A DNA stretch of 33,995 nucleotides, from NCBI GenBank assembly GCA_905181895.1, contig CAJJAB010000113.1, positions 1 to 33,995 of the forward strand, given 5' to 3'. This stretch comes from Flavobacteria bacterium MS024-2A (lineage in GTDB: Bacteria > Bacteroidota > Bacteroidia > Flavobacteriales > Flavobacteriaceae). The position numbers were made by a program, and so were the translations under genes. Shown piece by piece: positions 2,494 through 16,902 of the stretch; position 1 is the stretch's first letter; each line of letters opens with the position of its first letter. Under the pieces are notes generated by a model that was not told the DNA's origin, did not search any database, and worked only from the letters and a program-made list of their open reading frames with translations.

Positions 2494-5400
2494 TTGATTG
2501 AGAATAAACGATATGTAGTTTATAAATATTCCCAAGCTTTAATTCATATATTATTTTGGATATTATCTTCTTTTGGGGTCATTTTATCTCAAGAAAAAGC
2601 TCATGTTGGCGAAATTGCACTCCCAGATTCAAGTAGTATTTCTAAAAAATACACTTACGATTCTGAATCAGATCGGTATATATTTTCTAAAGAAATAGGA
2701 GGTTATTTAATTGGAATTCCCCTAATACTATCTATTAAAGAATATGAGGCTTTAGTCCTAAAAGAACAAATGCAAAATTATTTTAAAAAAAAGGTTCAAG
2801 CTTTAAGTGGTAAAGGTTTAGATATAGATGATACCCAGAAAAATTTACTTCCTGAATTATATGTAAACAACAAATTCTTTCAATCTATTTTTGGTAGTAA
2901 TGCTATTGATATATCGCCGCAAGGATCTATTGGGATTGACTTGGGATATCGTTATCAAAGAAATGATAATCCCATAACTTCTCCTGTAAATAGAAGATCT
3001 CCTGGATTTGAATTTGATCAACGGATTAGTTTAAGTTTATTGGGAAAAATTGGTGAGCGCCTTCAAATAACTGCTAATTACGACACTGAATCTACTTTCG
3101 ATTTTCAAAATCTTATTAAAATTGAATTTAACCCTCCCCAATTATCCGAATTAAAAGATGTAATCCCGGGTAAGATTGGTTCTAGAATCAATGATATTCA
3201 AGGAAAAGTAGGTAATATTAATTCTAAGATTGAAAATGTTAATGCCAAAGTTGAAGACATTCAAAATAAAATTGGAGAAGTTAAAAACACACTTAAACAA
3301 GCACGGCAAAGAATAGATCAATTAAAAAATAATATAAATCAACTCCCTAATAGTTCAGAAGAAGTTGGAAATAGAGTTGCGGACTATTTGAAGGGAAAAG
3401 TAACTGAGGATGCAATCATACAAAATATTGATATTGGAAATATTAGTTTGCCTTTAAATAGTAATTTAATTCAAGGAGCTCAAAGTCTTTTTGGAGTTCG
3501 AGCAGATTTAAAATTTGGGAACACAACCATTTCTGGAATTTTCTCTGAACAGCGTTCCCAATCTCAAAATATCACTTCACAGGGAGGAGGTAAATTAGAG
3601 GAATTCAGTTTATTTGCTTTAGACTATGAAGAAGATCGGCATTATTTTTTGAGTCAATATTTTAGAGATAACTATGATGCTTTTTTAGATACCTATCCTT
3701 ACATAAATTCACCTGTTCAAATTACTCGAATTGAAGTTTGGGTTACAAATAGAGGCTATCAAACCAATAATGTTAGAAATATTATTGCACTTCAAGATTT
3801 AGGAGAAGCCAATGCTGAAAACACAAAACTTGATGAGAGAGTTCCTGATTTTTTCACGGTATTAAACCCTGAATTTCCACCCAGTAATGATATTAACAGA
3901 TTGGATCCTGATGGGATAGGTTTTGGAGGAATTTTAACTAATGCCATTAGAGACATAGCAACGGTTAAAAATGGATTTGGATCTATTAAAACTACCGAAG
4001 GTTATGATTATGCTGTTTTGGAAAGCGCTCGAAAACTAAGTGATCAAGAGTATACTTTTCATCCTCAATTAGGTTACATTTCATTAAATCAACGCTTGAG
4101 TAACGATGAAATTCTGGGAGTATCTTTTCAATATACTTATTTAGGAAAAGTTTATCAAGTTGGTGAGTTCGCAAATGGAGATGTACCCGGTACTTCTTTA
4201 ATTCAGTCTAACGCTTCCCAACAAGCGCAACTAGCACCTGTAGTTCAAACCAATAATTTAGTGATCAAAATGCTTAAAAGTAGCTTGACCGACATACGTC
4301 AACCAATTTGGAACTTGATGATGAAAAACATATACAATACAGGAGCTTTTCAGCTTTCCCAAGAAGACTTTAAATTAAATATACTTTACACAGATCCTTC
4401 TCCAATTAATTACATGACTCCAGTAGATCCATCTATTTGGCCCGAAAACCTTAGCAAAGAAGTTTTATTAAACACAATGGATTTAGACCGTTTAAATGCC
4501 TATCAAGATTTAGTTCCTCAAGGAGACGGTTTTTTTGATTTTATTCCTGGGATTACAATTGACCCTCGTTATGGGCGAATTATATTTCCTAAAGCTGAGC
4601 CTTTTGGAGAATTTTTATTTAACCTATTAGATAATCCAGAATCGGGTAAAGAAGATTACGATATTGAGAGCACTTTTAATAAAAATCAAAAAAAATACGT
4701 TTTTAAAGAGTTGTATTCTTCAACAAAAGCCGCGGCACTCGAGTTTACCGAAAAAAATAAATTTCAATTAAAAGGACGTTATAAATCAGAAGGTGGAGAT
4801 GGCATCAATATTGGTGCTTTTAACGTACCTAGAGGTTCGGTTATAGTTACAGCAGGAGGGAGAGTTCTGCAAGAAGGTCTTGATTATACTGTAAATTATG
4901 AAATAGGACGTGTTAAAATTTTAGATGAGGGATTGAAAGCGTCAAATATTCCAATTGATATTTCTGTGGAAAATAACTCTTTTTTCAATCAACAAAATAA
5001 ACGTTTTTCAGGAATCAATCTCAATCATCGAATTACAGATAAAATTAATGTGGGAGGAACGCTTCTAAACCTGAGTGAAAATCCTCTAACCCAAAAAGCA
5101 AATTATGGAACTGAACCCGTAAATAATACGATGATGGGCTTCAATACCAATTTTTCTACTGAAATTCCATTTTTAACTCGTTTGGTTAACAAATATCCAA
5201 CTATCAAAACGAATATTCCTTCTCAAATTTCTTTTCGAGCAGAAGTGGCAAGTTTGGCAGCTCAAGATCCAAGAAATACCCAATTAAATGGTGAAACAAA
5301 TGTATATATAGATGATTTTGAAGGTGCACAAACTAATATTGATATTAAAGGCTATAATGCTTGGAATCTTTCAAGTGTCCCTGTAAATGATGTTATAGGA

Positions 5401-8400
5401 GCAAATGACGACGGCTTAAAAAGCGGATATGGAAGATCTAAACTAGCTTGGTATTCTATTGATCAAATCTTTTACTTTAGACCTCCGAACGGAATAAATA
5501 ATAACGATATATCTTCAAACGAAACACGGCGAATTTTCATTAATGAATTGTTTCCAGAACAAGATATTGTTCAAGGGACGCCAAGTACACTCCCAACATT
5601 TGATTTAGCCTATTATCCAGAAGAAAAAGGGCCATATAATAATTCTCCAAATGACCAATTTGGTAATAAAATAAAAAAGAATTGGGCGGGCATAATGCGC
5701 TCTTTAAATGCTACAAACTTTGAACAATCAAATGTAGAATTCATCGAATTTTGGTTATTGGATACATTTTCAAATAATGAATCTTCTTCAGACGATCTAG
5801 GTGAGTTAGTTTTTCATTTAGGGAATATATCGGAGGATGTTTTAAGAGATGGAAGAAAACAATTTGAAAATGGATTGCCTGGATCAACTGAACTTTCTCC
5901 AACTTATCAAACAGATTGGGGAAAAGTTCCTGCAAATCAATCGTTAGTATATGCTTTTAATTCTGTAGCAGAAGACCGTGATTTACAAGATGTTGGATTG
6001 GATGGATTAAATGATATTGAGGAACAATACATTTTCACTAATGGACCTATCAAAGATCCGGCTGGGGACAACTATCAATATTTTTTACAAGCAGAAGGTG
6101 GAATTCTAAATCGATATAAAAATTACAATGGATTGGAGGGGAATACTCCTGTTGCTTTTAGTGATTCTGATCGAGGTAATACTACAGAGCCAGATGCAGA
6201 AGATATTAACAGAGATCAAAGTATGAATACGATTGATAGTTATTTTGAATATCGTGTTCCTATTGCTAAAAATATGCAAGTAGGAAATCATCCATTTGTT
6301 ACTGATGTTCGAGAAAACATAAAAGTTAACGCACCTAATGGAGATGAATTAGTAGTTCGTTGGATACAGTTTAAAGTTCCAATTCAAAAAGATTATTATG
6401 AAAACACTTCATTCAACAATTATTTTAAGTCAGTAAACGCAATTAATGATTTAAGATCGATTCGATTTATGCGTATGGTTTTAAGTGGTTTTGAAGAAGA
6501 AGTTACCTTTCGGTTTGGCACTTTGGATTTAGTAAGGGGAGATTGGCGAAGATATAATAAAGCCTTAAATGAAGAGGTTTTAGTAAATGAAAATACTACC
6601 GTAGACATCAGTACAGTAAATATTTTGGAAAATGAAAATAGAATTCCTATTAATTATGTTTTACCTCCAGAGATAAGAAGAGAACAGATAAATAATAATA
6701 ATACAATAATAAGACAAAACGAACAGTCACTGGCATTTAGAGTTTGTGATCTACAGCCTTTGGATTCAAGAGGAATTTACAAAAACTTGAATCTTGACAT
6801 GCGTCAGTACAGTAAGTTGCGTATGTTTTTACATGCCGAGTCTCTTCCAGGTAATGAGCCGCTTCCAGGGGAGGGTTCGGAAGATGAATTTGATAAAAGA
6901 TTGGTTGCTTTTATTCGTTTGGGGACTGATTATCAAGATAATTATTATCAAATAGAGATCCCATTAAAACCCACTGAATATTCATCTGAGATTATAAATA
7001 GACTCACTGCAGAGGAGGTTTGGAACCCTGATTCAAATTCTCTGGAAGTTCCCATAGATCTTTTAGCTAAACTTAAAACGCTTGCAATTCAACAATTAGG
7101 ATTAGGAGAAACAATATATTTTGATGAAGAACTAAACTCAATAGAGGAATTTACGCCGATCAGCAGTCTACCTGGGGATAAAAAATATAAATTTTCAATT
7201 CGAGGAAATCCTTCTTTAGGAGACATAAGAACCTTGATGATAGGAGTTAAAAATCCCTCAACTAATTTAGGAGAATCTTTATGTGGTGAGGTTTGGTTTA
7301 ATGAATTAAGGATTTCTGGAATAGACAGTCAAGGGGGTTGGGCTGCGATTGGCGCTTTAGATGCTAATTTAGCTGATTTTGCTTCTTTTTCTGCATCAGG
7401 AAGGTATTCTACGATTGGTTTTGGGAGTATAGATCAGACTCCTAATCAAAGAGCAAGAGAGGATTTGCTGCAATATGATATAGTTTCTAATATTAACCTT
7501 GAACAACTTACCCCTTCCAAATGGGGGCTTCAAATACCTTTGAGTTTTGCAAGTGGAAAAACAATGATTACTCCAGAATATGATCCTTTTTATCAAGATT
7601 TAAAACTAGTTGATCGACTGGATACGGCAGAAAGAAAATCTCAACGTGATTCAATAAGAGATCAAGCAATTAACTATACAAGTAGAAAGAGTGTTAGTTT
7701 AATTGGAGTAAGAAAAAATAATTTAGGTGAAGATAAAAACTATTTTTACAGTCCAGAAAATTTTGATTTTTCCTATGCCTATAATGAATTGTTGCACAGA
7801 GATTATGAAATAGAAACTCAAGAAGAAATTAATTTATTATTGAGCGCTAATTATGGACATTCTTTCATTTCTAATCCCATTGAACCTTTTAAAAAAGCAA
7901 CTTTTTTTAATCGTAAAAAATACTGGCAGTGGCTTCAGAAAATTAACTTTAATCTTTTACCAAGCTCCCTCGAGGCATCAGCAAATATTAATAGAATTTT
8001 AAATAATCAGAAGTTTAGACAGGTATATTTAGAAGGAGTAGATGCGACGCTACAGCGGAGTTTACCCAATTTACAACAAAGAAACTTTTTGTTTGATTTT
8101 AACTATGCCTTTACTCATAATTTAAGTCGTTCGTTACGTGTAAATTTCAATGCAAATACAAGCAGTATAATTAGGCAACTGGATGCGATTGACTCTGGTT
8201 TGGTAAATCCTTTTATACCTTCAAAACAAATCTTATGGCAGGGATTACTCAATACAGGAGAACCAAATAATCATATTCAGTCCCTGGCTGTAAATTATAA
8301 ATTACCTTTTCAGCATCTCCCTTTTTTAAGTTTTATTGATGCAACTTACAATTATACCGGAAACTTCAATTGGATTAGAGGCTCCGAAGCACTATCACAG

Positions 8401-9945
8401 GTAAAAAATCAGGATGGTATCCCCCTAGGAATAGTAAATACTATTCAAAATAATAACACAAAAACCTTAACCGGAGCATTATCATTTGCAAAATTATATT
8501 CCATTTTGGGTTTAAAATCCAAGAGAAGTTCTTTCACACAAAAAATAAGAAATAGTATTCCTAAAGATTCTGTACCAAAATCAAAGAGTTCTTTCTTAAA
8601 GAAGGGCTTGACCCAATTAGTTGATGTATTGACAGCTGTAAAAAGAGTACAAGCCAGTTATAATGAAAACAATGGTTCTGTATTACCCGGTTATTTACCC
8701 TCAGTCGGTTTTGCAGGTGGGATGCGACCAACCTTGGGCTATACTTTTGGTAGTCAGGCAGATATCCGATATGAAGCAGCACGTCAAGGATGGTTAACAA
8801 GGTATCCAAATTTTAATCAACCTTTCACAAGTTTACATAGTAGCAAGTTTAAAGCATCTGCTCAGGTTGTTCCTCTAAAAAATTTAATTATTGATTTTAA
8901 TGCTGAGCGTGATTATTCCGAAAATAAACTTGAAAATTTTAAAGTAGAAGATCAAAATTATCTCCCTCAAAACTCAAGTTTGTTTGGTAATTTTGGAATG
9001 TCAACAATTTTGATTCAAACGACTTTTAGTAATTCTCGCGGTTCGTCAAGTTCAAATTTTGAAAAATTTAGGGATAACAGAAAAGTTATCGCAAACCGCT
9101 TGGCACAGAATAGTAATTATAGAAATCTAGTGAAGGATAATGATGGCTATCCCCTTGGCTTCGGGAGAAATCAACAAGGTGTTTTGATTCATTCGTTTCT
9201 AGCAGCATATTCGGGTTCTAGCCCAAAAAAAGTTTCGTTAAATCCAATTAGAAGTAACCCTTTACCCAATTGGAATATAAAATTCACAGGTCTTTCAGAA
9301 ATAAAAGCATTATCAAAAATCTTCAAACGTTTTTCAATAAATCATGCTTATCGAGCAAGTTATACCTTGACTAACTTTCAAAATAATTTTGATTTTAATA
9401 CTAATATTCCCGATCAATTAGATAAGTTAGGTAATTTAATTCCACAAAAATTATATTCTAATGTAAATTTAGTTGAGCAATTTAATCCCTTAGTTCGCAT
9501 TGATATTGAGATGAATAATTCATTTAAATTTTTAGCTGAGCTAAGAAAAGAAAGAGCCATCTCGTTAAGTCTTGACAATAATTTAATCACAGAATCAGCT
9601 GGTGATGAATACGTTATAGGAATGGGGTATAGAGTAAAAGATTTACGATTTAGAACTAGTTTTGGAGGCCGCCGGATTATTTTGAAGGGAGATTTAAACA
9701 TAAAAGCAGATGTCTCCTATCGAGATAATATTACTGTTTTAAGAAACTTGGAATACGATAACAACCAGGTGACTGCTGGACAACGTTTGGTAGCTATCAA
9801 ACTAACGGCCGACTACGCATTGACAAAAAATTTGATTGCCCAATTTTTTTATGATCATAATTTCTCAGAATTCGCAATTTCAACTGCCTTTCCGCAAACT
9901 AGTATTCGTTCAGGTTTTACAATTCGTTATAACTTTGGAAATTAA
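2494..9945 (+). CDS. sprA: SprA, giant outer-membrane translocon of the type 9 secretion system / gliding motility; probable TTG start
   Basis: 2483 aa. Characteristic SprA motifs include ANYDTESTFDFQNLIKIEF, IGNISLPLNSNLIQGAQSLFGVRADLKFG, FALDYEEDRHYFLSQYFRDNYD, YIDDFEGAQTNIDIKGYNAWNLSSVP and a C-terminal aromatic beta strand. Confidence 0.95.
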   Translation: MIENKRYVVYKYSQALIHILFWILSSFGVILSQEKAHVGEIALPDSSSISKKYTYDSESDRYIFSKEIGGYLIGIPLILSIKEYEALVLKEQMQNYFKKKVQALSGKGLDIDDTQKNLLPELYVNNKFFQSIFGSNAIDISPQGSIGIDLGYRYQRNDNPITSPVNRRSPGFEFDQRISLSLLGKIGERLQITANYDTESTFDFQNLIKIEFNPPQLSELKDVIPGKIGSRINDIQGKVGNINSKIENVNAKVEDIQNKIGEVKNTLKQARQRIDQLKNNINQLPNSSEEVGNRVADYLKGKVTEDAIIQNIDIGNISLPLNSNLIQGAQSLFGVRADLKFGNTTISGIFSEQRSQSQNITSQGGGKLEEFSLFALDYEEDRHYFLSQYFRDNYDAFLDTYPYINSPVQITRIEVWVTNRGYQTNNVRNIIALQDLGEANAENTKLDERVPDFFTVLNPEFPPSNDINRLDPDGIGFGGILTNAIRDIATVKNGFGSIKTTEGYDYAVLESARKLSDQEYTFHPQLGYISLNQRLSNDEILGVSFQYTYLGKVYQVGEFANGDVPGTSLIQSNASQQAQLAPVVQTNNLVIKMLKSSLTDIRQPIWNLMMKNIYNTGAFQLSQEDFKLNILYTDPSPINYMTPVDPSIWPENLSKEVLLNTMDLDRLNAYQDLVPQGDGFFDFIPGITIDPRYGRIIFPKAEPFGEFLFNLLDNPESGKEDYDIESTFNKNQKKYVFKELYSSTKAAALEFTEKNKFQLKGRYKSEGGDGINIGAFNVPRGSVIVTAGGRVLQEGLDYTVNYEIGRVKILDEGLKASNIPIDISVENNSFFNQQNKRFSGINLNHRITDKINVGGTLLNLSENPLTQKANYGTEPVNNTMMGFNTNFSTEIPFLTRLVNKYPTIKTNIPSQISFRAEVASLAAQDPRNTQLNGETNVYIDDFEGAQTNIDIKGYNAWNLSSVPVNDVIGANDDGLKSGYGRSKLAWYSIDQIFYFRPPNGINNNDISSNETRRIFINELFPEQDIVQGTPSTLPTFDLAYYPEEKGPYNNSPNDQFGNKIKKNWAGIMRSLNATNFEQSNVEFIEFWLLDTFSNNESSSDDLGELVFHLGNISEDVLRDGRKQFENGLPGSTELSPTYQTDWGKVPANQSLVYAFNSVAEDRDLQDVGLDGLNDIEEQYIFTNGPIKDPAGDNYQYFLQAEGGILNRYKNYNGLEGNTPVAFSDSDRGNTTEPDAEDINRDQSMNTIDSYFEYRVPIAKNMQVGNHPFVTDVRENIKVNAPNGDELVVRWIQFKVPIQKDYYENTSFNNYFKSVNAINDLRSIRFMRMVLSGFEEEVTFRFGTLDLVRGDWRRYNKALNEEVLVNENTTVDISTVNILENENRIPINYVLPPEIRREQINNNNTIIRQNEQSLAFRVCDLQPLDSRGIYKNLNLDMRQYSKLRMFLHAESLPGNEPLPGEGSEDEFDKRLVAFIRLGTDYQDNYYQIEIPLKPTEYSSEIINRLTAEEVWNPDSNSLEVPIDLLAKLKTLAIQQLGLGETIYFDEELNSIEEFTPISSLPGDKKYKFSIRGNPSLGDIRTLMIGVKNPSTNLGESLCGEVWFNELRISGIDSQGGWAAIGALDANLADFASFSASGRYSTIGFGSIDQTPNQRAREDLLQYDIVSNINLEQLTPSKWGLQIPLSFASGKTMITPEYDPFYQDLKLVDRLDTAERKSQRDSIRDQAINYTSRKSVSLIGVRKNNLGEDKNYFYSPENFDFSYAYNELLHRDYEIETQEEINLLLSANYGHSFISNPIEPFKKATFFNRKKYWQWLQKINFNLLPSSLEASANINRILNNQKFRQVYLEGVDATLQRSLPNLQQRNFLFDFNYAFTHNLSRSLRVNFNANTSSIIRQLDAIDSGLVNPFIPSKQILWQGLLNTGEPNNHIQSLAVNYKLPFQHLPFLSFIDATYNYTGNFNWIRGSEALSQVKNQDGIPLGIVNTIQNNNTKTLTGALSFAKLYSILGLKSKRSSFTQKIRNSIPKDSVPKSKSSFLKKGLTQLVDVLTAVKRVQASYNENNGSVLPGYLPSVGFAGGMRPTLGYTFGSQADIRYEAARQGWLTRYPNFNQPFTSLHSSKFKASAQVVPLKNLIIDFNAERDYSENKLENFKVEDQNYLPQNSSLFGNFGMSTILIQTTFSNSRGSSSSNFEKFRDNRKVIANRLAQNSNYRNLVKDNDGYPLGFGRNQQGVLIHSFLAAYSGSSPKKVSLNPIRSNPLPNWNIKFTGLSEIKALSKIFKRFSINHAYRASYTLTNFQNNFDFNTNIPDQLDKLGNLIPQKLYSNVNLVEQFNPLVRIDIEMNNSFKFLAELRKERAISLSLDNNLITESAGDEYVIGMGYRVKDLRFRTSFGGRRIILKGDLNIKADVSYRDNITVLRNLEYDNNQVTAGQRLVAIKLTADYALTKNLIAQFFYDHNFSEFAISTAFPQTSIRSGFTIRYNFGN

Positions 9946-11827: not shown

Positions 11828-12730
11828 ATGCCCCAAAATGATACCCTTACTCTAGCTAACTTTCAGCTAATCTTAAGTGATTTTTCTCAACTCACTAAGT
11901 TTAGATTGTCTGTGACAGTTGTTATTTCTTCAATTGCCGGATATTTTTTAGCCGTTGAAACTATAGATTACCCTACTTTGTTTTTGCTAATTGTTGGAGG
12001 ATATGCAATGGTTGGCGCTTCAAATACTTTTAATCAAGTTTTTGAAAAAGATTTAGATAAGTTAATGTTGCGTACGCAAAACCGCCCAATCCCTAAAGGG
12101 AGAATAAATCCCAATAGTGCCTTGTTCATTGGAGTAATTTTAACTCTAATAGGTGTAGGCGCATTATATGTTATCAACTTAAAAACAGCCTTTTTTGCAA
12201 GTTTATCTATTTTTATATATGCTTGTCTCTACACTCCATTGAAGCAAAAAACTTCATTATCTGTTTTTGTAGGAGCTTTTCCAGGCGCTATTCCCTTTAT
12301 GCTGGGTTGGGTTGCTGCAACAAATGAGTTCGGAATTGAACCGGGTGTATTATTTATGATTCAGTTTTTTTGGCAATTCCCCCACTTTTGGGCAATTGGA
12401 TGGCTAATGCATGATCAATACCAAGCAGCTGGATTTAAAATGTTGCCTTCGGGAGCACGTGACCATTCTACCGCTTTTCAAACGGTTTTTTATACTCTGT
12501 GGACTGTAGTGATTTCATTATTACCAGCTTTCCATAATACTGGTGCACTCTTTTTGTCATTATCCTCTGCTATTTTAGTAGGACTTTTGGGATTGTTTTT
12601 TTTGTTTTATGCCATAAGATTAATGTTTTTAAAAACAGATCAGGCTGCTCGATTTTTAATACGGGCAAGTATTATATACATCACAGGAGTACAATTAGTT
12701 TATGTATTGGATAAATTTTTGATACAATAA
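11828..12730 (+). CDS. cyoE: Protoheme IX farnesyltransferase (heme O synthase)
   Basis: UbiA-family motifs NTFNQVFEKDLDKLMLRTQNRPIPKGRI and YTPLKQKTSLSVFVGAFPGAIPFMLGW; HFWAIGWL. Confidence 0.95.
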   Translation: MPQNDTLTLANFQLILSDFSQLTKFRLSVTVVISSIAGYFLAVETIDYPTLFLLIVGGYAMVGASNTFNQVFEKDLDKLMLRTQNRPIPKGRINPNSALFIGVILTLIGVGALYVINLKTAFFASLSIFIYACLYTPLKQKTSLSVFVGAFPGAIPFMLGWVAATNEFGIEPGVLFMIQFFWQFPHFWAIGWLMHDQYQAAGFKMLPSGARDHSTAFQTVFYTLWTVVISLLPAFHNTGALFLSLSSAILVGLLGLFFLFYAIRLMFLKTDQAARFLIRASIIYITGVQLVYVLDKFLIQ

Positions 12731-12743
12731 AAAATATAAATAA

Positions 12744-13322
12744 ATGAATACAAACGACTCTTTAACGGTAAAAAATAATCGAGCAAAAAAAATGATGCTC
12801 TGGTTTGGAATGATAAGTATGAGTATGACTTTTGCAGGTTTAACCAGTGCCTATGTAGTTAGTAGTTCGAGATCAGATTGGATTCAACAAATTGAGCTGC
12901 CCTTTTCTTTCTCTCTAAGTACTTTACTTATTATTTTGAGTAGTGCAAGTTTTTATAGTGCACTAAAAATGATTCAATCTCAAAAAATAAAAGCTACTCA
13001 GTCATTACTCTTAATAACACTATTACTTGCAATTGGATTTATTTATTTTCAATTTCAAGGGTTTGGTGATATTATTGAAAAAGGTTATTATTTTACTGGA
13101 CCGGAAAGCTCTATAACTACATCCTATTTGTATGTTTTAGTTTTACTTCATTTGGTCCACTTAACGGCAGGCATAATTGTTGTTTTATTACTTTTTTTTA
13201 AGACTATGAGACAAAGTAATACTGATGGAAGTACCCTAGGATTTGAACTTGCCTTGACCTTTTGGCATTTTCTTGATTTTCTCTGGGTATATTTATTTTT
13301 ATTCGTTTCATTCTACGGTTAA
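12744..13322 (+). CDS. Cytochrome c oxidase subunit III-type protein (short paralogue)
   Basis: 192 aa, about 5 TM; SAYVVSSSRSDW, LHLVHLTAGIIVV and LTFWHFLDFLWVYLFLF are heme-copper oxidase subunit III signatures. Confidence 0.88.
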   Translation: MNTNDSLTVKNNRAKKMMLWFGMISMSMTFAGLTSAYVVSSSRSDWIQQIELPFSFSLSTLLIILSSASFYSALKMIQSQKIKATQSLLLITLLLAIGFIYFQFQGFGDIIEKGYYFTGPESSITTSYLYVLVLLHLVHLTAGIIVVLLLFFKTMRQSNTDGSTLGFELALTFWHFLDFLWVYLFLFVSFYG

Positions 13323-13358
13323 AAATTAATAAATTTGCAAAGAATCTAATATGACACT

Positions 13359-14339
13359 ATGGAAGTTACTGTAAAAGCATCTGATGACGATAGCCAAGTT
13401 TGGGCTGGAGGTAATAAACCTCTAAACGCTAGCTATGGTAAAATGATGATGTGGTTTTTTATTGTTTCTGATGCCTTGACATTTACAGGTTTTCTTGTGT
13501 CCTATGGTTTTTCAAGATTTAAAAACATTAATTCTTGGCCCATTGCTGATGAAGTATTTACACACTTTCCTTTTTTACACGGTGTGGATGCTCCCATGTA
13601 TTATGTAGCTTTAATGACTTTTGTATTAATATTCTCATCTGTTACCATGGTATTGGCAGTAGACGCTGGTCATCATATGCAGAAGACTAAAGTGACTTTC
13701 TATATGTTATTGACCATTATTGGTGGTGCGATTTTTGTCGGATCTCAGGCTTGGGAATGGAAAAACTTTATTAAAGGAGAGTATGGTGCTTTGGAAACTA
13801 AAGGAGGTCAAATCCTTCAATTCGTAAATGCAGAAACTGGAAAGCGTGCAGCAATACAAGAATTTGCAGTTGGTATAGAAACTGATCGAACTACCCATCA
13901 GTCAAGTAATGGTATTTGGTATGAAAATGAAACAGCTTTACCGACAGTCTCTTTATTAGGAGTTAAAGAAGGATTTGTTTCTAATACTGATTTAGTGATT
14001 CGGACGGAACAATTAGATGAGAAAGGGCGAAAAAAAGTACTATCAAGAGAAGAGTCTTTAACTAAAATAGATGAGGCAATTTATGTTGTTGAGGGAGCAA
14101 ACCTTATTCGTAATGAATATGGAAATAGACTTTTTGCTGATTTCTTCTTCTTTATCACGGGATTTCATGGATTCCACGTTTTATCTGGAGTAGTTATAAA
14201 TATTATCATCTTTTTCAATGTCATTGTTGGAACTTATCAGCGCAGAGGACACTATGAAATGGTTGAAAAAGTTGGACTTTATTGGCACTTTGTTGATTTG
14301 GTTTGGGTATTTGTATTTACATTTTTCTATCTAGTTTAA
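13359..14339 (+). CDS. Cytochrome c oxidase subunit III with an extramembrane insertion
   Basis: 326 aa; MMMWFFIVSDALTFTGFLVSYG, GSQAWEWKNFI, FFFITGFHGFHVLSGVVINI, GLYWHFVDLVWVFVFTFFYLV. Confidence 0.92.
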   Translation: MEVTVKASDDDSQVWAGGNKPLNASYGKMMMWFFIVSDALTFTGFLVSYGFSRFKNINSWPIADEVFTHFPFLHGVDAPMYYVALMTFVLIFSSVTMVLAVDAGHHMQKTKVTFYMLLTIIGGAIFVGSQAWEWKNFIKGEYGALETKGGQILQFVNAETGKRAAIQEFAVGIETDRTTHQSSNGIWYENETALPTVSLLGVKEGFVSNTDLVIRTEQLDEKGRKKVLSREESLTKIDEAIYVVEGANLIRNEYGNRLFADFFFFITGFHGFHVLSGVVINIIIFFNVIVGTYQRRGHYEMVEKVGLYWHFVDLVWVFVFTFFYLV

Positions 14340-14359
14340 CATAATTAAAAACAAATTAA

Positions 14360-14743
14360 ATGGCAGCAGAAGGGCATAAATTAGCCATCTTTAGAGGTTT
14401 ATTAAAATTTAAATCTAATCAGCAAAAAATTTGGGGAGTATTAATATTCCTTTCAATAGTAACAACTATTGAAGTTGCTTTGGGGATTATTAAACCTGAG
14501 ATATTGATGGGGAGTTTTCTTAGAATGAAAATTCTAAATTGGATTTTTATTATCCTTACCATAGTTAAAGCTTATTACATTGCCTGGGATTTCATGCACA
14601 TTAGAGATGAAAGAAGCGGATTTAAAAATGCGATAGTACTTCCGCTTATAATTTTAATTCCCTATTTAGCTTTTATTCTTTTGATTGAGGCTGATTATAT
14701 TTTTGATGTAATGAATGATGGATTTGTTTCTTGGAATTTTTAA
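14360..14743 (+). CDS. Cytochrome C oxidase subunit IV family protein
   Basis: 127 aa, 3 TM, directly after subunit III; VKAYYIAWDFMHIRDERSGFKNAIVLPLIILIPYLAFILLIEADYI. Confidence 0.82.
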   Translation: MAAEGHKLAIFRGLLKFKSNQQKIWGVLIFLSIVTTIEVALGIIKPEILMGSFLRMKILNWIFIILTIVKAYYIAWDFMHIRDERSGFKNAIVLPLIILIPYLAFILLIEADYIFDVMNDGFVSWNF

Positions 14744-14764: not shown

Positions 14765-14790
14765 AAGTGGTTTTAAACCGCTTTTTTTTT
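14765..14790 (+). terminator. Probable intrinsic terminator after the subunit IV gene, immediately upstream of the next ATG
   Basis: AAGTGGTT (14765-14772), loop TTA, AACCGCTT (14776-14783; one G-U pair), overlapping a long T-run to 14790. Confidence 0.65.
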
Positions 14791-14795
14791 GTATT

Positions 14796-15461
14796 ATGAA
14801 AAAGGAAGATTTATATAAGAAATTAGTATTAGGATTATTATTTGTATTTCCAATAGTAGTTTATCTTTTTTTTGCATCGGGAAAAAATAATTTTGCTAAA
14901 CTTCCTATTTTATCAAAAGGTGTTAATGAAATACTTGCCATTAAGTCTAATGTAGATAATAAATTAATGCTTAGAGATCATATAACTATATTGGGTTATT
15001 GGGGAGGGAGCCTTCAAAATAAGCAAGCCGAAGCTCTCAATCTAAATGAAAAAATCTACAAGCGTTTTTATGAGTTTGCAGATTTTCAATTTGTATTTTT
15101 TGTTAATCAAGATAGCTTGTCACAAGTAAATATTTTAAAAAGGACATTAAAAGAAGGGGTTGGAACGGACCTTTCCAAATGGAATTTTATTCCTGTATCT
15201 ACAGATGAAATTCAATCACATTTCAACTCGCTTCAAACCCCATTAAAACTTAGTCTAGAGGCAAGCTCACCGTACGTCTTTATAATCGATAAAGATTTAA
15301 ACTTAAGAGGAAGAAATGATGACGAAGATTCAGGAACTCTTTATGGTTTTGACGCTAGATCTGTTGCACAGATCAATAAAAAAATGATTGACGACGTCAA
15401 GGTGATCCTTGCGGAATATAGGCTAGCTTTAAAAATTTATAATACAAACCGTAAAAAGTAA
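14796..15461 (+). CDS. Membrane-anchored SCO/thioredoxin-fold-like protein lacking cysteines (tentative)
   Basis: N-terminal TM (KLVLGLLFVFPIVVYLFFA). Segments line up by eye with the adjacent SCO: ITILGYWGGSLQNKQAEALNLNEKIYKRF / LSKWNFIPVSTDEIQSHF / SPYVFIIDKDLNLRGR. No Cys residue in the ORF. Confidence 0.55.
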   Translation: MKKEDLYKKLVLGLLFVFPIVVYLFFASGKNNFAKLPILSKGVNEILAIKSNVDNKLMLRDHITILGYWGGSLQNKQAEALNLNEKIYKRFYEFADFQFVFFVNQDSLSQVNILKRTLKEGVGTDLSKWNFIPVSTDEIQSHFNSLQTPLKLSLEASSPYVFIIDKDLNLRGRNDDEDSGTLYGFDARSVAQINKKMIDDVKVILAEYRLALKIYNTNRKK

Positions 15462-15466
15462 TTTAT

Positions 15467-16162
15467 ATGCCGAGTTTAAAATATGTGGGTCTTTTTTTGA
15501 TTATTATGATTTTTGGCATCTTATTTATTCCAAAAATAATTGAACGTATCAATTCAAACTCAATAATTGATAGTAGTCGAACTCAATCAGCTGCCCCTTT
15601 AAATTATATTATTTTAAACAATCAAACCAAGAAAGTACCTTCTTTTATATTTAAAAATCAAGACAGTCTCTTGATTTCTAACGAAGATTTTTTGGGGAAA
15701 GTTTATGTAGCAGAATTTTTCTTTACCTCATGTCCTAGTATTTGTCCAATAATGAATAAAAATTTGAAAACAATTGAATCTATCTACGGAATAAGATCCG
15801 ATTTTGGAATTGCTTCTTTTACAATTGATCCAGACCATGATACTCCATCTGTCTTAAAGAATTATGCTAATAATTATGAAGTTTTTTCTCAAAACTGGCA
15901 TTTTTTGACAGGCCAAAAAGAAGCTATATTTGAACTTGCAAATTCTGGATTTAATATATTTGCCTCTATAAATCCGAAAGTAGCTGGAGGTTTCGAACAT
16001 CAAGGCTATTTTGCCTTGATCGATAAAAAAGGCTTTATCCGTTCTCGTTCCGATCAATTTGGAAATCCTATTGTTTATTATATGGGACTTGATCAAGAAG
16101 GAGTGGAGGTTCAAGATGTTGATTTATTAATTGAGGATATAAAAAAATTATTGAATGAATAA
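15467..16162 (+). CDS. SCO1/SenC family copper-dependent cytochrome oxidase assembly protein
   Basis: N-terminal TM, CPSIC motif (FFFTSCPSICPIMNKNL), TIDPDHDTPSVLKNYA, WHFLTG, and a His in FEHQGYFALIDKKGFIRSR. Confidence 0.93.
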   Translation: MPSLKYVGLFLIIMIFGILFIPKIIERINSNSIIDSSRTQSAAPLNYIILNNQTKKVPSFIFKNQDSLLISNEDFLGKVYVAEFFFTSCPSICPIMNKNLKTIESIYGIRSDFGIASFTIDPDHDTPSVLKNYANNYEVFSQNWHFLTGQKEAIFELANSGFNIFASINPKVAGGFEHQGYFALIDKKGFIRSRSDQFGNPIVYYMGLDQEGVEVQDVDLLIEDIKKLLNE

Positions 16163-16685
16163 TATCATGATAAATAAAGGTAAATACAACATTTATATAT
16201 GGATTGTTTCCATTGTAGTACCTGTGCTTGTTGCATTTCTTTTTACTGTTCGTATCCCGAATGTTGAACCTTTAAGTTTTTTGCCGCCAATATATGCGTC
16301 AATTAATGGGTTAACAGCCATATTTTTGATTATTGCTTTATGGGCAATTAAAAATAAAAAAATAGTGTTACACCAAGGCTTGATGAAAATCTCTATTGGA
16401 TTGTCTTTAGTTTTTCTTGTTATGTATGTTGCTTACCATATGACCTCTGACTCAACACCATATGGAGGTGAGGGATTTATGAGATATATTTATTTTTTTA
16501 TTTTAATTACCCATATCATCCTATCCATAGGGGTCATCCCAATGGTTTTAATTACTTATGTAAGGGCTATATCAAAACAATTTGCAAATCATAAAAAAAT
16601 TGCCCGCTATACTTTTCCAATATGGCTTTATATAGCTATTACCGGTGTAATTGTATATCTTATGATTTCACCTTACTATATTTAA
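16155..16685 (+). CDS. DUF420 domain membrane protein (start may be the Met at 16167)
   Basis: VRIPNVEPLSFLPPIYASINGLTAIFLIIALWAIKNKKIVLHQGLMK, YHMTSDSTPYGG, ITHIILS are DUF420-type features; located next to SCO and oxidase subunits. Confidence 0.85.
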   Translation: MNNIMINKGKYNIYIWIVSIVVPVLVAFLFTVRIPNVEPLSFLPPIYASINGLTAIFLIIALWAIKNKKIVLHQGLMKISIGLSLVFLVMYVAYHMTSDSTPYGGEGFMRYIYFFILITHIILSIGVIPMVLITYVRAISKQFANHKKIARYTFPIWLYIAITGVIVYLMISPYYI

Positions 16686-16686
16686 T

Positions 16687-16902
16687 ATGAAATCTAAATT
16701 TTTATTTTCAGCCTTGTTGTTTATAATTTTCACTACTGATTTAGTTTATTCACAATGTTCTATGTGTAGAGCAGTACTTGAGTCCGAAGAAGGTCAAGTA
16801 ACAGCTAAAGGAATTAATAATGGAATTCTTTATCTTATGGCTATTCCTTATCTTTTAGTTGGAGTAGTTGGCTGGAAAGTTTTTCAGATATTAAAAAAAT
16901 AA
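16687..16902 (+). CDS. 71-aa membrane miniprotein with exported CSMC motif
   Basis: Signal-like N terminus ending ...LVYSQCSMCRAVLESEEG, then one TM helix (NGILYLMAIPYLLVGVVGWKVFQIL). Starts right after the DUF420 stop. Confidence 0.75.
   Translation: MKSKFLFSALLFIIFTTDLVYSQCSMCRAVLESEEGQVTAKGINNGILYLMAIPYLLVGVVGWKVFQILKK

Follow-up and report, generated by a model that had tools for sequence, protein, structure and literature searches.

The window analysed here, a stretch of 33,995 nucleotides from a member of the Flavobacteriaceae, encodes two SCO-like proteins in tandem, the first of which has lost its copper ligands and is called pseudo-SCO in what follows. Comparison with related genomes indicates that pseudo-SCO probably derives from an ancestral bifunctional SCO and serves as a membrane-anchored, copper-free docking or assembly factor for the CuA oxidase. 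The original prediction had put forward a partner or scaffold in oxidase assembly, and such a role is the best inference from the comparisons described below.

The pseudo-SCO locus

The features of the locus are listed in Table 1. In Bacillus and Staphylococcus, aa3/caa3 activity depends on CtaM, the DUF420 protein (PMC9145763). The small protein encoded behind it, whose CSMC motif lies near the N-terminus, is kept after DUF420 across Bacteroidia cox loci. A convincing family match for this protein was not found; it may act in oxidase assembly as a small metal or thiol protein. The window also contains a very long ORF of 2483 aa (2494-9945), which we take to resemble SprA, a gliding/type IX secretion protein.

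Table 1. Position of pseudo-SCO, its segments and the neighbouring genes in the window
Feature	Position	Strand	Remarks
ctaB, two COX III-like genes, coxD (subunit IV)	11828..14743	+	upstream structural cox genes
Hairpin and T-run in the coxD/pseudo-SCO spacer	14765..14791	+	resembles an intrinsic terminator
pseudo-SCO gene	14796..15461	+	221 aa, ATG start, no Cys
N-terminal membrane anchor and adjoining motif (KKLVLGLLFVFPIVVYLFFASGKNNFAKLPILS)	14817..14915	+	codons 8-40
Position of the CxxxC motif, reads LQNKQ	15012..15026	+	codons 73-77; both Cys replaced in alignment
C-terminal helix and basic tail (VAQINKKMIDDVKVILAEYRLALKI)	15363..15437	+	codons 190-214; conservation 0.89-0.93
Active SCO (CPSICP, GGFEH), TM-anchored, short C-end	15467..16162	+	PF02630, 87 bits
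DUF420 / CtaM-family membrane protein	16155..16685	+	PF04238, 1.6e-44
Small conserved protein of 71 aa, CSMC motif, final gene of the block	16687..16902	+	3' of DUF420 in nearly all loci

Pseudo-SCO is related to SCO proteins in sequence and predicted fold

Scanning the 221-aa protein against Pfam and NCBIfam gave no match, and the same scans of 48 relatives returned scattered weak redoxin/thioredoxin matches and nothing more. Searches of the PDB chain sequences with pseudo-SCO found no relative. Direct BLASTP against the neighbouring SCO was weak (E 0.010 over 51 aa); single-sequence searches with the pseudo-SCO ORF matched SCOs of other families at 1e-10. In profile-profile comparisons (hhalign), the pseudo-SCO profile matched the family of neighbouring (paired) SCOs with an E of 4.8e-6 and the anchored cox-operon SCOs of Bacteroidia with an E of 1.2e-22 (probability 99.5). 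Judged by sequence, the homology of pseudo-SCO to SCO proteins is secure despite the weak BLASTP match to its neighbour. The original prediction had paired three stretches of the two proteins by eye, and these pairings agree with those from the alignment; the neighbour, taken for a canonical SCO, is recognised as such by Pfam.

An AlphaFold2 model of pseudo-SCO, built from 48 sequences (pLDDT 84.9, pTM 0.76), has a transmembrane helix at residues 3-27 and, behind it, a beta-alpha-beta core; its C-terminal helix is long. Its first Foldseek match in the PDB was BsSco (1xzo; E 3.9e-5, probability 1.00, TM 0.64 by target), followed by another SCO1/SenC protein and then by ResA-type folds, with 4hde among the top hits. 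The paired active SCO gave the same first matches, more strongly. The predicted structure thus has the SCO/thioredoxin fold that had been claimed for it. An N-terminal transmembrane segment had likewise been claimed for both proteins and was found in both; an N-terminal hydrophobic segment is present in all 148 pseudo-SCOs that were compared.

Pseudo-SCO shares with the SCO1/SenC copper chaperones (PF02630; BsSco 1xzo, human SCO1/2) the fold, the single N-terminal transmembrane segment and the cox operon, and has retained the conserved Trp and the IDK-strand Asp. It differs from them in that CxxxC and His are gone, the basic C-tail is extended and Pfam does not recognise the window protein. 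The TlpA/ResA thiol oxidoreductases, which were lower Foldseek matches, also have a thioredoxin-like fold, but they are CxxC catalysts, whereas pseudo-SCO has no such motif.

The copper ligands are absent from pseudo-SCO homologues

The absence of cysteine noted in the original prediction is true of all 221 residues. The loss of CxxxC and of the ligand His extends to the homologues: in aligned columns, the first Cys is absent in 148/148 pseudo-SCOs, the second also in 148/148, and the distal His in 144/148, the other four having His. Orthologues that keep CxxxC and His were looked for among these 148 homologues, and none was found. The Trp and the IDK-strand Asp are retained in nearly all of them. 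All three ligands are kept in the same columns of 141/141 paired active SCOs and 33/33 single SCOs; one active SCO that seemed to lack CxxxC (locus L110) was rejected as an exception, the apparent loss being due to ambiguous bases. From the aligned columns, pseudo-SCO is predicted to be unable to bind copper at the SCO site or to perform CxxxC thiol chemistry.

New residues, such as the acidic loop LRGRxDDED, might instead make pseudo-SCO a chaperone for a different ligand, or for CuB rather than CuA. The acidic loop and its RGR are indeed highly conserved in Flavobacteriaceae, but the loop is unconserved in distant members and there is no conserved set of His, Met or Cys, which makes this possibility improbable.

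Pseudo-SCO is universal in the sampled Flavobacteriaceae and under purifying selection

Codes such as f5, f10 or g90 label families and genera in what follows. Within the window's genus, pseudo-SCO was found in 34 of 36 relatives, the two without it being 57-58% complete. In a sample of 248 genomes of the order, it was found in 53/53 other genomes of the window's family, Flavobacteriaceae. Beyond this family it occurs in four Flavobacteriales families, namely in members of f10, f12 and f13 and in one genus of f15. Maribacter, Flagellimonas, Allomuricauda and Sinomicrobium are among the named bearers. Across 297 genomes of the phylum, those outside Flavobacteriales yielded SCO-like proteins only, and no orthologue. 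The adjacency to the active SCO is conserved as well, the order coxD-pseudo-SCO-SCO-DUF420 (CtaM) being kept almost throughout. One Flavobacteriaceae genus has an intermediate form (locus L159, genome G198): weak Pfam SCO/AhpC-TSA matches remain in its pseudo-SCO, and its active SCO is a lipoprotein located after the small gene of the block.

Within the genus, median dN/dS values were 0.087 (pseudo-SCO), 0.135 (SCO) and 0.143 (DUF420); selection on pseudo-SCO is purifying. We therefore rejected a local degenerate copy, since the protein is universal in the sampled Flavobacteriaceae and has this dN/dS. That it might more generally be a functionless degenerate remnant of a duplicated SCO, as the lost ligands and the fast divergence between families could suggest, is hardly credible in view of its presence in every Flavobacteriaceae genome sampled, its low dN/dS and its near-invariant tail.

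Anchor and tail are divided from the copper ligands in paired loci

In families f7, f8, f11, f14 and most of f15, the slot of pseudo-SCO is occupied by a single SCO, which carries a characteristic N-anchor motif, the copper ligands and the basic C-tail. Such a three-module SCO is found in this slot also in other families of the class, outside Flavobacteriales, and this is therefore likely to be the ancestral state. The anchored cox-operon single SCO of other Bacteroidia shares the coxD/DUF420 slot, the anchor motif and the C-tail with pseudo-SCO; unlike pseudo-SCO, it has kept CxxxC and His and has no separate active SCO gene alongside.

An HMM of the N-anchor, trained exclusively on single SCOs, gave a median of 36.0 bits for pseudo-SCO and 1.1 for the paired active SCO, pseudo-SCO scoring higher in 141/141 loci. 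The corresponding values for the tail HMM were 17 and 2.4 (pseudo-SCO higher in 129/141 loci). Past the conserved Asp, the median tail length is 21 residues in pseudo-SCO, 20 in single SCOs and 7 in paired active SCOs; in the window, the active SCO stops about 14 residues short of the end of pseudo-SCO. Conservation of pseudo-SCO peaks in the C-tail (0.93), in helix 1 (0.89) and around IDK (strand and turn), and the anchor reaches 0.82; the lost ligand site is not among the most conserved segments. In the paired active SCO, the peak is the CxxxC strand (0.87).

At the level of sequence, these comparisons establish that in paired loci anchor and tail were retained by pseudo-SCO and the ligands by the active SCO, which lost the tail and the anchor motif. 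Anchor, tail and gene position all make pseudo-SCO appear to be the successor of the ancestral operon SCO; the active copy next to it would be the one whose anchor changed and whose tail was lost. A lipoprotein anchor as the rule for paired active SCOs was considered and rejected: it fits f10, f13, f15 and g33, but most of those in Flavobacteriaceae have a different transmembrane segment. The retention of anchor and tail is silent on what these bind.

A second, stepwise loss of ligands in family f17

Outside Flavobacteriales, alignment and tree reveal a second, stepwise loss of ligands, in the anchored operon copy of f17, another family of the class. Several genera have this SCO with all ligands; its His is changed to Tyr, Phe or Leu in g92 and g206, and both Cys and His are absent in g90. 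Graded loss, of His and then of both Cys, was seen in loci L226, L282, L219, L221, L257 and others. In 4/4 f17 genomes where a second SCO was read, a lipoprotein SCO with full ligands is encoded elsewhere in the genome.

In the tree, the operon proteins of f17 group together (support 100), those of g90 among them, and the g90 protein of L226 has about 40-45% identity to its f17 kin and at most 29% to any Flavobacteriales pseudo-SCO. An AU test of one common pseudo-SCO clade gave p values of 0.067 (full length) and 0.53 (core only), so that a single origin was not rejected; the core-only tree did not separate the two origins, and the deep branches of the trees are long. Independent origins of the f17 and Flavobacteriales pseudo-SCOs appear likely from these data, the AU test being no proof.

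Pseudo-SCO appears to follow the oxidase and is grouped with assembly genes

The genomes of family f5 have kept SCO, COX III is absent in all but two of them, and pseudo-SCO was looked for in them and not found. This pattern indicates that the presence of pseudo-SCO follows the oxidase, not SCO. In the tree, the f5 SCO nests among paired active SCOs, which points to pseudo-SCO having been lost along with the oxidase. The absence in f5 probably goes back to a single loss, and the association with COX III thus rests on few events. Subunit II of the window's genus has kept its CuA ligands (CNKICGASHYNM), so that copper must still be loaded. Most relatives in the genus have COX2, which was not found in the genome of the window itself (only 64% complete).

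Extra COX genes were observed in two metagenome assemblies, probably as contamination. In both they resemble eukaryotic mitochondrial DNA, with an ordinary COX2 adjoining COX1 in G009 (locus L211) and six in-frame TGA in G129 (G129:C5:5871-6641).

A terminator-like hairpin was found in 86 of 146 distinct coxD/pseudo-SCO spacers, versus 1.6 expected in shuffles, and the Bacteroidetes-type motif TAnnTTTG in 52/146, often 3' of the hairpin. The spacers before single SCOs (median gap 3 bases) had a hairpin in 0/30. In Flavobacteriaceae, the position and pairing of the hairpin persist as its sequence changes. The hairpin suggests that the genes from pseudo-SCO through SCO and CtaM to the small protein are probably transcribed as an assembly unit of their own in this family.

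These data bear on the possibility that pseudo-SCO is an accessory structural subunit, which stays in the mature aa3 oxidase or in an ACIII (alternative complex III) supercomplex and braces subunit II. Pseudo-SCO is the first gene past the structural cox genes, its helix 1 and tail are strongly conserved, it has a transmembrane anchor, and F. johnsoniae does have ACIII-aa3 supercomplexes (PMC8552683). Yet the terminator usually parts it from the structural genes and groups it with SCO and CtaM. PDB chain sequences contain no relative of it, an absence that says little since Flavobacterium oxidase chains were not among the PDB matches. On balance, we regard a structural subunit as unlikely.

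Discussion

We propose that pseudo-SCO, a membrane anchor followed by a periplasmic SCO/thioredoxin domain, would act as follows. The ancestral cox-operon SCO would have combined an N-anchor (ILxxP...Y...GxxNFxxLP), a Cu/thiol core and a C-terminal helix with a basic tail. As the comparison of loci shows, it was duplicated in the lineage of Flavobacteriaceae and near relatives, and the modules were divided. Pseudo-SCO would most likely use its anchor and tail to dock on an aa3 oxidase subunit or on an assembly intermediate, the probable site being the membrane portion of subunit II. In this position it may hold the apo-CuA domain, the active SCO with CtaM, or both in place, and the active SCO would meanwhile load copper or reduce the CuA cysteines. 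Docking by anchor and tail, the docking partner and the cooperation with the adjacent SCO are what we infer here.

Plant HCC2 (AtSCO2) is, like pseudo-SCO, an SCO homologue without the Cys and His ligands alongside an active paralogue. It has been reported to interact with the metallochaperone module and to complement a yeast sco2 mutant (PMC6696091). Loss of HCC2 leaves oxidase activity intact (PMC3971200), which counts against the assembly reading of pseudo-SCO and would fit a protein of redox stress or of copper-independent signalling that has no part in oxidase assembly, as proposed for HCC2. We nevertheless think a signalling role of this kind quite doubtful for pseudo-SCO, which lies invariably within the cox block and is absent where COX III is absent in f5; furthermore, most pseudo-SCOs have no Cys at all and hence no thiol chemistry. 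HCC2 differs from pseudo-SCO in being eukaryotic, otherwise Cys-rich, linked to UV-B stress and not needed for oxidase activity. The confinement of pseudo-SCO orthologues to Flavobacteriales in the phylum sample argues for an origin separate from that of HCC2.

A survey of copper homeostasis in one Flavobacteriaceae genome lists SCOs with CxxxC and no ligand-free one (PMC11213822). We found no literature on a bacterial Cys-less SCO family, in a search with thin coverage of subscription papers.

The ligand-free HCC2 of plants has raised the question whether SCO has a role besides copper carriage. In the present case, the copper-free half is maintained throughout a bacterial family as a gene of its own beside the copper-binding half. 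The conservation of a ligand-free twin beside SCO suggests that SCO also has a copper-independent job in building the oxidase. There is perhaps an even chance that Bacteroidia SCOs have two separable jobs, copper/thiol chemistry and copper-independent docking by anchor and tail, that bacteria have split these on more than one occasion, and that a dedicated copper-free SCO has thereby become an obligatory platform for CuA oxidase assembly. Since the copper-free part is a separate gene and genetics are workable in F. johnsoniae (PMC8552683), the non-metal function could be deleted alone. With the present analysis, a protein that goes unrecognised by curated models acquires a name and a role that can be tested.
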